From the NCBI GenBank assembly GCA_001751075.1, contig MAVP01000005.1, positions 1 to 40,099 on the forward strand: DNA of 40,099 bases. The letters run 5' to 3'. The notes below the pieces were generated by a model. That model worked only from the letters and a program-made list of their open reading frames with translations, made no database searches and was not told the origin of the DNA. This DNA is from Desulfobacterales bacterium S7086C20. GTDB taxonomy: Bacteria > Desulfobacterota > Desulfobacteria > Desulfobacterales > C00003060. Position numbers and translations under genes: made by a program. Positions 35,505 to 40,079 of this stretch are shown one piece after another (within the stretch, counting starts at the first letter, position 1; the number at the start of each line of letters is the position of its first letter).

Positions 35505-36791
35505 TTACCTTTTATCAAAAACCCGCTTACTTTTCCTCTCGGTACGCGGAAGAGTCCCGTAATCGGCTAACTCTACCTTTCCTCGTACCAAAAGGTGTCT
35601 TTTAATATTATCTTCAAGCCGTGAAATGGTTTCCTTGTCTTTTGAATAGTCTGTTGTTTCTCTCCGCTCCACTCTGACAGTCATATAATCCTGTCCCGAT
35701 GCTCGCTTCAAGGTGACCTGATATTCGCTGCCAACCTCGGCCTCTTGGGAAAGGAGATTGTCGATTTGGCCGGGATATATGTTTACCCCGCGGATGATAA
35801 ACATGTCATCCGTACGGCCAAGCAGGGGACCGTGCATGGGCAGTACACTTCCACATGAGCATGATTGGGGTATAATATGTGTCAAATCTCTGGTTCGGTA
35901 CCTAATGAGAGGTACAGCCTCTTTGCGTAAAGTAGTGACTACCATCTCGCCGATTTCCCCAATGTGCACAGGCTTAAGCGTTTCCGGATCTATAATCTCC
36001 AGAATGTAGTAATCCGCCCAGTAATGTATCCCTTCATGTCTTTGGCACTCAATGCCTGTGCCAGGCCCGTAAAGCTCAGTAAGGCCGGGAATATCAAAGC
36101 TCTCTTCGATTCCAAAGTTCTTTTCTATCTTTCTCCGCATAGTCGTACTATGGCGTTCTGCCCCAAAAATTATCTTTCTTATGCTAATCCTATCAACAAG
36201 GTTTCTGCGATGGATTTCTTCGGCCATAAGAAGCCCCATGGAAGCTGTGCAGCAAAAGACAGTGCTGCTAAGATCCGCCATGGCTTCACAGTGCATATCA
36301 CGATTCCCGGGTCCCACTGGGATAGCCATTGCGCCAAAGCGTTCACAGCCTAGTTGAAATCCTGCGCCGGCAGTCCAAAGTCCGTAGCCTACACCGATTT
36401 GTACCCGGTCTTTCCGATTAAGGCCCGCCATTTCGTAACAACGGGCAAACATATTTGCCCAGTCATCAATATCCTTCTGAGTATAGCAAATGACCTTCCT
36501 CTTTCCTGTAGTTCCTGAGGAGGCATGGACGCGTACTATCTTGTCCTCCGGAACGGAAAGGAGAGGAAAGGGATAGCCCTCTTTGAGATCATCAGCGGTA
36601 GTGAAGGGGAGCTTATCAAGATCGCCAAGCGAGCCAATGGTATCGGGACTAATACCAGCTTCACCCATTTTTTTTCTATAGAACGAAGATCCATGATAGG
36701 CATGGTTCACCGTCCATCGCAATCCTTCAGACTGTAATTCTTCCAGTTCTTCCTGTGTTGTCACCGTTGGCATAAAGGTTTTCGGCATCAT
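35505..36791 (-). CDS. paaK: Phenylacetate-CoA ligase family (arylacetate-CoA ligase)
   Basis: The 428-residue length fits the PaaK family of ATP-dependent, AMP-forming ligases. The ATP-binding P loop is VHASSGTTGKRKV (S91-K99 core); further motifs are GLTELYGPG (A5), YRTRDLTH (A7), and GRTDDMFIIRGVNIYPGQID (A8 region), with the C-terminal catalytic Lys region in LPRTERKSKRV. It turns an arylacetate into its CoA thioester in the cytoplasm. It is the last gene of a leftward dctP-dctQ-dctM-paaK series (43 bases after dctM), so the imported acid is probably its substrate. Given the Trp attenuator upstream of the operon, indole-3-acetate is a likely candidate, though phenylacetate cannot be excluded. 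Confidence 0.93.
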   Translation of the reverse strand: MMPKTFMPTVTTQEELEELQSEGLRWTVNHAYHGSSFYRKKMGEAGISPDTIGSLGDLDKLPFTTADDLKEGYPFPLLSVPEDKIVRVHASSGTTGKRKVICYTQKDIDDWANMFARCYEMAGLNRKDRVQIGVGYGLWTAGAGFQLGCERFGAMAIPVGPGNRDMHCEAMADLSSTVFCCTASMGLLMAEEIHRRNLVDRISIRKIIFGAERHSTTMRRKIEKNFGIEESFDIPGLTELYGPGTGIECQRHEGIHYWADYYILEIIDPETLKPVHIGEIGEMVVTTLRKEAVPLIRYRTRDLTHIIPQSCSCGSVLPMHGPLLGRTDDMFIIRGVNIYPGQIDNLLSQEAEVGSEYQVTLKRASGQDYMTVRVERRETTDYSKDKETISRLEDNIKRHLLVRGKVELADYGTLPRTERKSKRVFDKR

Positions 36792-36834: not shown

Positions 36835-38139
36835 TTACTGCACCATTCGCGGTATGAACAAAACAATTTCGGGAAAGATTATTAGAATAGCTATGCAGAC
36901 AATGCAAGCCAGCAGAAAAAAACTCACACTCCTAAAGATTGTTCCAAGGCTTACCTCGGGAACCAAGGCCTTGACTACATATATATTGACACCCACAGGT
37001 GGCGTAATTGCTCCCATTGTTGTGACCATAGTTAGGATTATAGCGTACCATATGGGGTCAAAGCCTAGAGCCATTCCAAGGGGAAAAAAGATGGGGATGG
37101 TCAAGACAAGAAATCCCAGGGAATCCATGAAACAGCCCCCTATCAAATAGATCAACAACACAAAGGTCAGGATAACGTAAGAGGGCACCGGCAAGGCCGA
37201 GACAAAGTCTGCTACCATGAAGGGGAGTCTCGTTATAGCCAAGAAGCGGCCAAAGATTATAGCCCCTGCAACCAGCATAAATACCATGCATGATATCTTG
37301 GTTGTATCAAGTATGGAATTAACAAACCCTTCCCATGTGAGTCTGCCGGTCACCGCAGTGACAACAAGCGTAAAAAAAACACCAATGGCGCCTGCTTCTG
37401 TGGGAGTAAATATGCCGGCATAAAGCCCACCGATTACCAAGACAAATATGGCTATTGTTTCCATAATTCCTGTGAGAGATTTTATCTTGTCCTTAAGGCT
37501 TGTCTTTGGGCCTGCGGGTCCAAGGTTCGGATTGATACGACAAAGGACAAAGATTGTAAGCACAAACAAGATTCCCAAGAGAATGGCAGGCAAGATTCCA
37601 GCAAGAAAGAGCTTGATGATCGATTGATTTGTCTGCAGACCAATGATAATAAGTACTACGCTAGGTGGCATGATTGTGCCCAATGTGCCGCCCGTAACGA
37701 CAGTGCCGCTGCTTAATGCGATATCATAACCGTATTTTTTCATTTGAGGCAGAGCAATCGTACCCATGGTTGCCGCTGTAGCAGTATTAGAACCGCATAT
37801 AGCAGCAAAAAGCTCATCAGCACCTATTGTTGCAATAGCCAAGCCTCCACGCCAGTGACCGAACCACTTGTAAGCAGTGTTATACAGTTTCTCGGCTATT
37901 CCCGAATTGAATGCGAGGTAACCCATCAATATAAAAAGTGGTATTACGGTCAGCCCATATTTGGAGAATGTGGTCCAAAGATCGGTGCCCACCATGTTGA
38001 CAGCTGCTTCAAAAGTGACTACGTAACAAAATCCGCAAAACCCCACCATGGCCATGGCAAAACCTACAGGCATACCGAGGAGGAATAGCACCGCAAACAG
38101 GACAACTATTCCAATGATTCCGACCAAAGTAAGGCTCAC
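36835..38139 (-). CDS. dctM: TRAP transporter large membrane subunit
   Basis: The 434-residue protein has about twelve hydrophobic helices and DctM-family motifs: FLLGMPVGFAMAMVG, GGLAIATIGADELFAAICGS with NTATAATMGTIALP, a GTLGTIMPPSVVLIIIG helix hairpin, FTPTEAGAIGV, and TPPVGVNIYVV near the end. With DctQ it forms the sodium-driven inner-membrane importer fed by DctP. Its start overlaps the dctQ stop by four bases. Confidence 0.95.
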   Translation of the reverse strand: MSLTLVGIIGIVVLFAVLFLLGMPVGFAMAMVGFCGFCYVVTFEAAVNMVGTDLWTTFSKYGLTVIPLFILMGYLAFNSGIAEKLYNTAYKWFGHWRGGLAIATIGADELFAAICGSNTATAATMGTIALPQMKKYGYDIALSSGTVVTGGTLGTIMPPSVVLIIIGLQTNQSIIKLFLAGILPAILLGILFVLTIFVLCRINPNLGPAGPKTSLKDKIKSLTGIMETIAIFVLVIGGLYAGIFTPTEAGAIGVFFTLVVTAVTGRLTWEGFVNSILDTTKISCMVFMLVAGAIIFGRFLAITRLPFMVADFVSALPVPSYVILTFVLLIYLIGGCFMDSLGFLVLTIPIFFPLGMALGFDPIWYAIILTMVTTMGAITPPVGVNIYVVKALVPEVSLGTIFRSVSFFLLACIVCIAILIIFPEIVLFIPRMVQ

Positions 38140-38627
38140 TTTTCACCTTTCGTCACTGGAAGTACAGAGTGCAAGAAATCGGACAGAAAAACCACGGACA
38201 GACTGACACATCCGAGGGCAACACCAAACGTGAAGGGATAATAGATGATTCTCAATGTCTCTGTAACCTCTCCCGTTTTCCACAAAGTTATACCGTATTG
38301 GGTAATCTGTCCTGCTACGATGGTAAAAAAGATCATACAAATGAGAGAATTGATGCTGCTTAAAAGCCGTTGAGTTTTTTTTGAAAACCTTTGTACCAAT
38401 ATGTCGACTGCAATATGTCCACGCTTCATTTGGGTATAGCCCAGGGCGAAGGCTGTTACTATGGCGCAAAAATATCCCATGAGTTCAAAAGTACCGCTTA
38501 CAGGCACCCAAGCAAGGCGTAGGAATATGTTTGAACAGGCCAGAAGGATCATTGCTACCATAAAACAGCCGGCCACCGATACGAGGATCCGGTTTAAAAT
38601 CTGACTTATTCTATCAAGTATTCTCAT
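38136..38627 (-). CDS. dctQ: TRAP transporter small membrane subunit
   Basis: This 163-residue protein has four membrane helices (about 14-36, 48-66, 88-110, 130-150), with the family signature FELMGYFCAIVTAFALGYTQ around 45-64 and KRGHIAVDIL after it. It pairs with DctM. It follows dctP after 114 bases that hold two strong hairpins, and overlaps dctM. Confidence 0.92.
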   Translation of the reverse strand: MRILDRISQILNRILVSVAGCFMVAMILLACSNIFLRLAWVPVSGTFELMGYFCAIVTAFALGYTQMKRGHIAVDILVQRFSKKTQRLLSSINSLICMIFFTIVAGQITQYGITLWKTGEVTETLRIIYYPFTFGVALGCVSLSVVFLSDFLHSVLPVTKGEK

Positions 38628-38741: not shown

Positions 38742-39767
38742 TTATTGTCCCGAATACATCTTCGCAAAAGACTTTATGTCTTCTACAATAGCCTCTGCCG
38801 GTAGCCCTTTGGTCTTTGCATCCTTTATCCAGTTGGTAGTAATGGTCTCAAGCAGGTCGGTCCATTTGTCCTTTTCTTCTTGGGTTAGCTGGACGACTTT
38901 AACGTCATGGCGTTTCTTCGACCAGGCAATAGATTCATCGACGTGATTATCCATGTACGTACCTGTCCATGCTGCCTGTTGAGTCTCCAAACCCTTAAAG
39001 ACATCCTGGATATCCTTAGGAAGCGAGTTCCATTTATCCATGTTCATGACTACAGCAAACGGATATACTGCTGTATTGGTTATGGTGACATGTTTACACA
39101 ATTCGGCAAATTTAAAATCTTGCATAACTTCAAGGGATGAAAACAGCCCCTTGACTACGCCCTTTTGTAGGGCTTCCGGAGTTTCCGGCATCGGCATTCC
39201 AACCGGGTTTGCCCCCCATGCCTTCAATATCTGTGCGGCTCCGCCTGATGCGCGCAGGTTGACACCCTTAATATCATTTAGGTTCCTGATCGGTATTTTT
39301 GACATAATATTTGAGGGGGCCGTTGTAAACATTGTAAGGACCTTTACCTTGGAAAACGCCTTAGGATTGTATTTGTTGTACAGATCCAACAGAATAAGGC
39401 TTCCCACCCGCGAGCTTGGTATTCCAATGGGAAGGCTGGTAGCATTTGTGACCGCAAAACGCCCCGGTTGATATGCCATACACAGACAACCGATGTCTGC
39501 CTGGCCTGCAATAACACCATCCATCATGTTCTTGGCGCCAAGAAGAGTGCCACCAGGATAAGTATTTATGACGACCTTTCCGTTGGTCCGCTTTTCTACC
39601 TCCTTTTTCCACCTCTCCATTTGAACGCATGGAAATGTGGGTGCAGGCGGAAAATTCGCATAGCTTAAAGTGATCGATTTTGCCTCAGAGGTTCCAGGCA
39701 TCAAGGCAACACTAAACAAGGTTATCAAAAAAACTCCTGCTAATATGAATCCCATCTTTTGTTTCAT
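38742..39767 (-). CDS. dctP: TRAP transporter periplasmic substrate-binding protein
   Basis: The 341-residue protein has a signal peptide (about 1-29, ending GTSEA-K). The DctP fold is shown by KKEVEKRTNGKVVINTYPGG, MMDGVIAGQADIG, the carboxylate-binding Arg in IKGVNLRASGG, and PETPEALQKGVVKG. AAGGAGG precedes the ATG. It would bind an organic acid in the periplasm and deliver it to DctQM. It is the first structural gene after the tryptophan attenuator and its coupling to paaK suggests an aryl acid as ligand. Confidence 0.94.
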   Translation of the reverse strand: MKQKMGFILAGVFLITLFSVALMPGTSEAKSITLSYANFPPAPTFPCVQMERWKKEVEKRTNGKVVINTYPGGTLLGAKNMMDGVIAGQADIGCLCMAYQPGRFAVTNATSLPIGIPSSRVGSLILLDLYNKYNPKAFSKVKVLTMFTTAPSNIMSKIPIRNLNDIKGVNLRASGGAAQILKAWGANPVGMPMPETPEALQKGVVKGLFSSLEVMQDFKFAELCKHVTITNTAVYPFAVVMNMDKWNSLPKDIQDVFKGLETQQAAWTGTYMDNHVDESIAWSKKRHDVKVVQLTQEEKDKWTDLLETITTNWIKDAKTKGLPAEAIVEDIKSFAKMYSGQ

Positions 39768-39883
39768 CTTTCACTCCTCCTTGTTGGTGATTTCTTAAAG
39801 ACCAGACGGAACGTCATAAGTTCCTTGTACAATTGGATTAAAGTTCCCTCCTTTCACTTGATTTTTAGAAACGACAACGCACA

Positions 39884-39922
39884 AAAAAAGCCGCGGGTTT
39901 TTAAGGCACTGTCCGCGGCTTT
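39884..39922 (-). terminator. Attenuator terminator (3:4 hairpin) ahead of dctP
   Basis: On the minus strand AAAGCCGCGG (39922-39913) pairs with CCGCGGC (39897-39891) followed by seven U (39890-39884), a strong Rho-independent terminator about 117 bases before dctP. Its left arm overlaps CGGACAG (39915-39909), which can instead pair with region 2. Confidence 0.85.
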
Positions 39923-39978
39923 GATGATTTTAAGTCTCTACCTAACCCTTGAGACGGACAGATCCCTCCTTGCTGTCC
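39909..39978 (-). promoter_or_regulatory. Trp-type attenuator, regions 1, 2 and 3
   Basis: On the minus strand region 1 is GGACAG (39978-39973), lying on the codons just after the Trp run. Region 2 is CTGTCCG (39961-39955) and region 3 is CGGACAG (39915-39909). Region 2 can pair with region 1 (6 pairs) or with region 3 (7 pairs, extended by GTCTC/GAGAC at 39955-39951 and around 39937-39933). The 2:3 form destroys the terminator; the 1:2 form permits it. A ribosome stalled at the Trp codons would cover region 1 and favour read-through. Confidence 0.8.
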
Positions 39979-40022
39979 CGCCACCACCAATACCAAACCT
40001 CTTGCACACCACTTTGTTTCAT
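39942..40022 (-). CDS. Tryptophan leader peptide of the dctPQM-paaK operon
   Basis: The ATG at 40022-40020 opens a 26-residue frame containing W10 Y11 W12 W13 W14 and ending at a TAG at 39944-39942. Four Trp codons in five are essentially diagnostic of a transcription attenuator leader peptide, and the alternative hairpins follow directly. The ribosome binding site is weak (a GAG about 13 bases upstream). When charged tRNA-Trp is scarce the ribosome would stall here and the downstream operon would be transcribed. Such leaders usually precede trp biosynthesis genes; here the next genes are dctP, dctQ, dctM and paaK. Confidence 0.85.
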   Translation of the reverse strand: MKQSGVQEVWYWWWRDSKEGSVRLKG

Positions 40023-40050
40023 AAACCCAAACCAACTCGAAACTGTAAAT

Positions 40051-40079
40051 GGCATAACAAAATGGCATGGAAATGTCAA
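40051..40079 (-). promoter_or_regulatory. Putative sigma-70 promoter of the attenuated operon
   Basis: On the minus strand TTGACA (40079-40074) is followed after 17 bases by TATGCC (40056-40051). Transcription would start near 40044, giving a 22-base leader before the leader-peptide ATG. A direct repeat of ATGCCAT flanks the -10 region. Confidence 0.6.

Follow-up and report, generated by a model that had tools for sequence, protein, structure and literature searches.

The DNA considered here is a window of 40,099 bases that makes up the whole of contig C5 of the Desulfobacterales bacterium S7086C20. Near its right end lies a short leader resembling a tryptophan attenuator, in front of genes for a TRAP transporter and a PaaK-like aryl-CoA ligase. 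This arrangement raises the question of why an importer and a ligase for an aryl acid should be placed under the control of tryptophan supply. The answer that we favor, with a probability of about 0.82, is that the attenuator controls an operon for indole-3-acetate salvage, in which the acid would be taken up, activated with CoA and, together with indolepyruvate ferredoxin oxidoreductase (IOR), reductively carboxylated on the way to tryptophan. The features on which this reading depends are as follows.

40051..40079, minus strand: promoter-like boxes seen in the sequence, −35 TTGACA (40079-40074), a 17-nt spacer and −10 TATGCC (40056-40051)
39942..40022, minus strand: leader peptide ORF of 26 aa, MKQSGVQEVWYWWWRDSKEGSVRLKG and stop, with in-frame Trp-rich homologues in the genus
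39981..39995, minus strand: Trp control codons W-Y-W-W-W, found in 0/3000 shuffles
39973..39978, minus strand: segment 1, GGACAG, whose partner in the window sequence is segment 2; the genus-conserved alternative is GCUGG:CCAGC
39955..39961, minus strand: segment 2, CUGUCCG, paired with segment 3 in 9/9 sequences
39909..39915, minus strand: segment 3, CGGACAG, common to antiterminator and terminator
39883..39922, minus strand: intrinsic terminator, stem AAAGCCGCGG/CCGCGGCTTT (3′ arm also given as CCGCGGCUUU) and seven U ending at 39883
38742..39767, minus strand: dctP, predicted TRAP solute-binding protein of the aromatic/indole-acid type (PF03480; nearest PDB entries 4n6d, 4nap and 4pgn/4pgp)
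38136..38627, minus strand: dctQ, TRAP small membrane subunit (PF04290)
36835..38139, minus strand: dctM, TRAP large membrane subunit (PF06808; TIGR00786 above cut-off)
35505..36791, minus strand: paaK-like aryl-CoA ligase (PF00501 and PF14535; TIGR02155 392 bits; nearest PDB entries 4r1l and 2y27)

The preliminary description of this DNA had reported promoter-like boxes, a 26-codon leader with W-Y-W-W-W, 1:2 and 2:3 pairings and a terminator with seven U, all of which are present on the minus strand. The gene order dctP-dctQ-dctM-paaK behind the leader was borne out by Pfam, and the three domains of a complete TRAP set score above their cut-offs within one operon. Segment 3 sits inside the terminator stem, so that the 2:3 and 3:4 pairings are mutually exclusive, and the fold predicted when the 3′ arm of the terminator is omitted is the 2:3 helix. 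The GGACAG/CTGTCC pairing proposed as 1:2 does exist in the window, but it stands in for a helix between the Trp codons (GCUGG) and CCAGC, which is the 1:2 pairing conserved in the genus and has decayed in the window sequence only. Four Trp in five codons occurred in 0/3000 dinucleotide shuffles of the upstream region, as did a comparable terminator, and the leader is the sole short ORF in the window with such a run. A TTGACA box is also found upstream of the same leader in relatives, and no clear Shine-Dalgarno sequence lies ahead of the leader ATG in the window. Neither the window nor any of seven related loci has a match to an Rfam leader family at the gathering threshold; the best match below it is Leu_leader (17.6 bits against a threshold of 50, E 0.46). 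The anatomy of a ribosome-mediated Trp attenuator is confirmed.

Comparison with relatives, which had been suggested as a check, showed that both the Trp codons and the alternative pairings are conserved. Among 21 other genomes of the genus, the leader was found in eight by DNA search and in nine with a covariance model, R1, which was built from nine sequences and recovers a tenth member; in all, 10/22 genus genomes carry it and 12/22 do not. The ten members score 104-141 bits against R1, and the next matches reach at most 36. Every genus leader whose 5′ end is present has an in-frame Trp-rich run, in most cases W-C-W-W-W or W-x-W-W-W, and the spacing between this run and the mostly conserved SVRxQR before the stop codon is constant. 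Across the nine sequences, the antiterminator 2:3 is paired in 100% of cells (slid controls 26-54%), and the set of 1:2 and terminator in 97% (slid controls 36-65%; separately, 97.8% for the terminator and 95.5% for 1:2). The changes within these helices are one-sided, of the G-C/G-U kind, and two-sided covariation is absent from the nine genus sequences, as expected because segment 3 must pair with both segment 2 and segment 4.

The genes behind the leader vary within the genus. In three genomes, including that of the window, it precedes dctPQM-paaK (G000, G007, and G020), and in G006 it precedes dctPQM up to the contig end. In G003 and G014, the same leader is followed by a Liv-type ABC importer with paaK, and in G011 and G015 by a Liv importer with no paaK nearby; the Liv assignment is based on Pfam in G003, G011, and G015 and on ORF sizes and order in G014. 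As the leader stays the same while TRAP and Liv-type ABC importers are swapped, paaK being found with both, the substrate class appears to be kept rather than the protein family. In one genus genome, G009, no Trp-run leader precedes dctPQM-paaK. In G012, only a paaK remnant stands behind the leader; at this locus (L050, on contig C127), the Trp leader lies directly before the C-terminal part of paaK, and in a genome that is 98% complete and has no IOR match it is apparently a decaying copy of the system. A different leader was observed in G014 (C261:747-855, L089), where a Leu-rich peptide, MRLLLLGLLLLLGLLQGGVCLR and stop, is followed by a terminator, and which by its sequence is probably a Leu attenuator.

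If the operon is to rebuild tryptophan, IOR should be available. Neither the window nor any of the genus loci that were read has iorAB beside the operon. The source genome has its own IorA (TIGR03336, 778.9 bits; cut-off 650.9) at C64:8101-9921, unlinked to dctPQM-paaK, and a Trp leader sought at these iorAB genes was not found. IOR is present in 8/10 leader-bearing and 6/12 leaderless genus genomes, a co-occurrence that is not informative; the two leader-bearing genomes that lack an IOR match are G012 and G020 (83% complete). The proposal that iorAB genes share the leader thus fails in the source genome, but it is upheld in other Desulfobacterales families: an R1 match in another family, with the peptide MSFNLWCWWWQKF and stop, stands directly before iorA, and the G132 neighborhood reads leader-iorA-iorB-paaK-dctP-dctQ-dctM. 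Relatives of the window DctP occur in 124/389 sampled genomes of the order, and in about half of 40 such neighborhoods that were read, iorAB, with or without paaK, lies directly before dctP. Many of the neighborhoods have Trp-run leaders equipped with a terminator, segments 2 and 3 reading GAAGCUUGCUCACC and GUGAGAAGCUUC, respectively, and at some further loci W-R-W or W-H-W leaders occupy the same structural frame. By a strict criterion, a Trp-run leader precedes 9/29 iorA or paaK genes with an upstream gap, compared to 1/254 other genes (Fisher p = 3e-9).

A second model, R2, finds leader matches in 48/389 genomes of the order and in five genomes outside it. Thirty of the order loci were read, of which 18 precede iorA, nine paaK and two trpB2, while one runs off its contig. 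The genes behind these Trp leaders comprise iorAB-paaK-livGFKHM (G103), paaK-livGFKHM (G228, G217, and G083), iorAB-livHMGF-paaK (G507), trpB2-iorAB-paaK-dctPQM (G091), dctPQM alone (G033) and trpEGDCF (G669). The IorA encoded in the G132 operon passes TIGR03336 with 652.5 bits (cut-off 650.9), and two other operon IorA proteins fall just under it (649.5 and 643.8 bits). The antiterminator of the R2 set is paired at 95.8% (slid controls 39-50%). Two-sided changes, which among the relatives are seen in the R2 set only, affect four pairs of its terminator, whose values were reached by 3 to 61 of 500 shuffles, and by two for the covariation score. Mid-scoring R1 matches were considered as further cases and rejected, as most precede trpE or aroF and are ordinary leaders, and genome-wide DNA-pattern matches in Brevibacterium, Pseudomonas, Halomonas, and similar genomes were taken as chance.

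Two further observations concern gene sets of this kind. The same attenuator type stands before trpB2 alone in G131, G023, G143, G268, and G709 (L272, L279, L283, L284, and L273), an arrangement which suggests, at the level of sequence, that TrpB2 has a role in tryptophan supply; the TrpB2 proteins of G091 and G709 pass the curated models TIGR01415 and NF009057 with 622-666 and 704-753 bits. Outside the order, the loci L332, L335, and L338 show dctPQM-iorAB-paaK or iorAB-paaK-dctPQM without a Trp-run leader.

The source genome also encodes the full trpEGDCFBA set in one operon behind a Trp leader of its own, MTIYLTNNWSWWWCTTLGVCPPG and stop (C42:6655-6768, L080), and hence indole-3-acetate salvage would supplement de novo tryptophan synthesis rather than be the sole source. 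Before its genes for DAHP synthase (aroF), aroB and aroE lies another leader, MKDRKHAKMGGFYFYYWYGMPVCP and stop, with a terminator (C22:20181-20299, L081), which to judge from its codons is a Phe/Tyr/Trp attenuator on a shikimate operon. Phe/Tyr-rich leaders like this one are also seen in G012 and in other families. Control by leaders rich in cognate codons is therefore general in this genome, which makes a leader with Trp codons only informative.

Collectively, these data are best explained by the following mechanism. Under a shortage of charged tRNA-Trp, the ribosome would stall on WYWWW, segments 2 and 3 would pair, the terminator would not form and dctPQM-paaK would be transcribed; when tryptophan is sufficient, the ribosome would reach the stop codon and cover segment 2, and the 3:4 pairing would terminate transcription. 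DctPQM would then import indole-3-acetate, PaaK would convert it to indoleacetyl-CoA, and IorAB, encoded at the unlinked C64 locus here and within the operon itself in other families, would form indolepyruvate by reductive carboxylation, from which an aminotransferase would yield tryptophan. The leader, its pairings and terminator, the gene content, the conservation and, in relatives, the placing of iorAB, trpB2 and Liv-type importers alike under Trp-leader control can be read from the sequences, and from them we infer the substrate, the direction of the IOR reaction and the response to tryptophan in vivo. The import and activation of indoleacetate, already put forward in the preliminary description, gains support in this way from comparative evidence: the tryptophan-supply genes iorAB, trpB2 and trpEGDCF stand behind the same leader type in relatives, and the role of the window operon would follow from theirs. 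Counted against indole-3-acetate salvage were the lack of iorAB linkage in the genus, the two leader-bearing genomes without IOR, the 12/22 leaderless genomes, the leaderless dctPQM-paaK of G009, de novo tryptophan synthesis, the PaaK score under its cut-off (see below), the lack of an obvious Shine-Dalgarno sequence, and a grouping of the window dctM with leaderless loci rather than with iorAB-linked operons.

The attenuator could be real and the transporter could nevertheless take up tryptophan itself or indolepyruvate, with paaK, and iorAB elsewhere, as passengers having another role. The nearest solved relatives of the window DctP are Desal_3247 (4n6d, 53% identity) and Dde_0634 (4nap and 4pgn/4pgp, 47%), Desulfovibrio TRAP proteins reportedly crystallized with indole acids; the Dde_0634 entries 4nap, 4pgn, and 4pgp presumably hold D-Trp, indolepyruvate and indole-3-acetate as ligands, two of which would suit import of tryptophan or indolepyruvate. 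Moreover, Trp regulons often include tryptophan importers, and in some genomes of the genus the Liv importer has no paaK nearby. Against this stands the occurrence of paaK and iorAB, in many families, behind the same Trp leader as the importer, be it TRAP or Liv, because neither would be needed if tryptophan or indolepyruvate were imported. In addition, the TRAP proteins that appear closest in fold bind aromatic carboxylates: next after the two nearest relatives come structures titled with cinnamate, coumarate, 4-hydroxyphenylacetate or "specific for aromatic acid ligands", in a ranking of PDB entries for which alone an AlphaFold model of moderate quality (mean pLDDT 68) was used. A review (PMC5812351) names "indole acids" among the TRAP ligands newly found in the EFI screen. 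Import of tryptophan or indolepyruvate is thus considered unlikely.

It seems somewhat less probable again that the operon serves phenylacetate or 4-hydroxyphenylacetate, for Phe/Tyr supply or catabolism, with tryptophan as the signal of a general shortage of aromatic amino acids. The PDB entries nearest to PaaK, 4r1l and 2y27, are named phenylacetate-CoA ligases, and Methanococcus is known to make aromatic amino acids from aryl acids (PMC4162585; PMC3462420). However, PaaK reaches only 392 bits against TIGR02155, whose cut-off is 646, and is therefore a PaaK-like aryl-CoA ligase and not an equivalog of phenylacetate-CoA ligase; a score so far under the cut-off suggests that it likely acts on an aryl acid other than phenylacetate. 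The control codons are also almost only Trp, whereas the aroF-aroB-aroE leader in the same genome has Phe, Tyr and Trp, and the leader type is common to trpB2.

That the operon serves the catabolism of aryl or indole acids, the Trp leader being incidental or a feedback on tryptophan degradation, is very improbable. The window dctM groups with leaderless, partly catabolic-looking loci and is separated from the iorAB-linked transporters with 100/100 support; one of the leaderless loci, in G049, has dctPQM adjoining hydantoinase_B, paaK, thiolase and three xanthine-dehydrogenase-type hydroxylase subunits. Anaerobic indoleacetate degradation employs a gene set of this kind, so that the G049 locus also speaks for indole-3-acetate as the acid carried by this group of transporters. 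Yet attenuation by Trp codons switches genes on at tryptophan shortage, which is the wrong sign for degradation, and no catabolic genes are found within the window operon. The separate dctM grouping indicates that the window arrangement was probably assembled separately, and the Trp leader has, as far as the sequences tell, probably been joined to importers more than once. As for the leaderless relatives, dctPQM genes near hydantoinase_B, paaK, thiolase and xanthine-dehydrogenase-type subunits were observed at L206:511-12369 and also at L207, L216, and L201, which are candidate clusters for anaerobic indoleacetate degradation in Desulfobacterales. Finally, a chance meeting of a short Trp-codon ORF with an unrelated terminator, for which one could cite that roughly 4% of random 452-nt stretches from related loci contain short ORFs with loosely clustered Trp codons, a background that led us to adopt the strict criterion, is refuted by the 0/3000 shuffles with the strict form and by the conservation of leader and pairings across the genus.

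Beyond the window, indole-3-acetate salvage fits a broader picture which we hold to be likely: a widespread Trp-attenuated regulon of the Desulfobacterota, with an interchangeable TRAP or Liv-type ABC importer, an aryl-CoA ligase, IorAB and TrpB2, that would rebuild tryptophan from environmental indole-3-acetate, the leader having been fused to importers at least twice, once in the genus of the window without iorAB. Its components are of known kinds, and a description of the regulon combining them was not found in the literature searched, the coverage of which was partial, especially for subscription papers. Genes that are switched on by tryptophan shortage should supply tryptophan, and in this way an aryl-acid importer and ligase gain a regulatory reading of their purpose. 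Indole-3-acetate, the auxin, is produced by plants and by amino-acid fermenters. Sulfate-reducing and related anaerobes are predicted to scavenge it and convert it to tryptophan, which would amount to cross-feeding within sediments and anoxic consortia. A likely substrate is also provided for the large TRAP group formed by the dctP relatives (124/389 sampled genomes of the order) and for Liv-type importers that are otherwise called branched-chain amino acid transporters, and a scavenging pathway that was previously guessed becomes directly testable.

Among known systems, the closest in regulation is the leader of the enteric trp operon (trpL-type), with which the locus shares a short peptide with Trp codons in tandem, the three pairings 1:2, 2:3 and 3:4, and a U-rich terminator, and the implied regulatory logic is identical. 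It differs in that an importer and a CoA ligase are controlled here (elsewhere iorAB and trpB2), that segment 1 consists of the Trp codons, which pair with CCAGC or CACC, and that the sequence matches no Rfam family at threshold. With respect to the transporter, the closest solved relatives of DctP are the EFI-characterized Dde_0634 and Desal_3247, a comparison that concerns the proteins and their presumed ligands. In the Aromatoleum type of anaerobic indoleacetate degradation cluster, the genes for an importer, a CoA ligase, a hydroxylase and a hydantoinase-like protein resemble leaderless loci such as L206; that cluster is catabolic and has no Trp leader, whereas the window operon is without degradation genes. 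The closest metabolic counterpart is found in Methanococcus maripaludis, where aryl acids feed the synthesis of aromatic amino acids by way of the IOR MMP0713/0714 (PMC4162585; PMC3462420). The route proposed here likewise runs through indolepyruvate ferredoxin oxidoreductase, but it would be bacterial, with dedicated TRAP or ABC importers, Trp attenuation and a Trp-specific signal.
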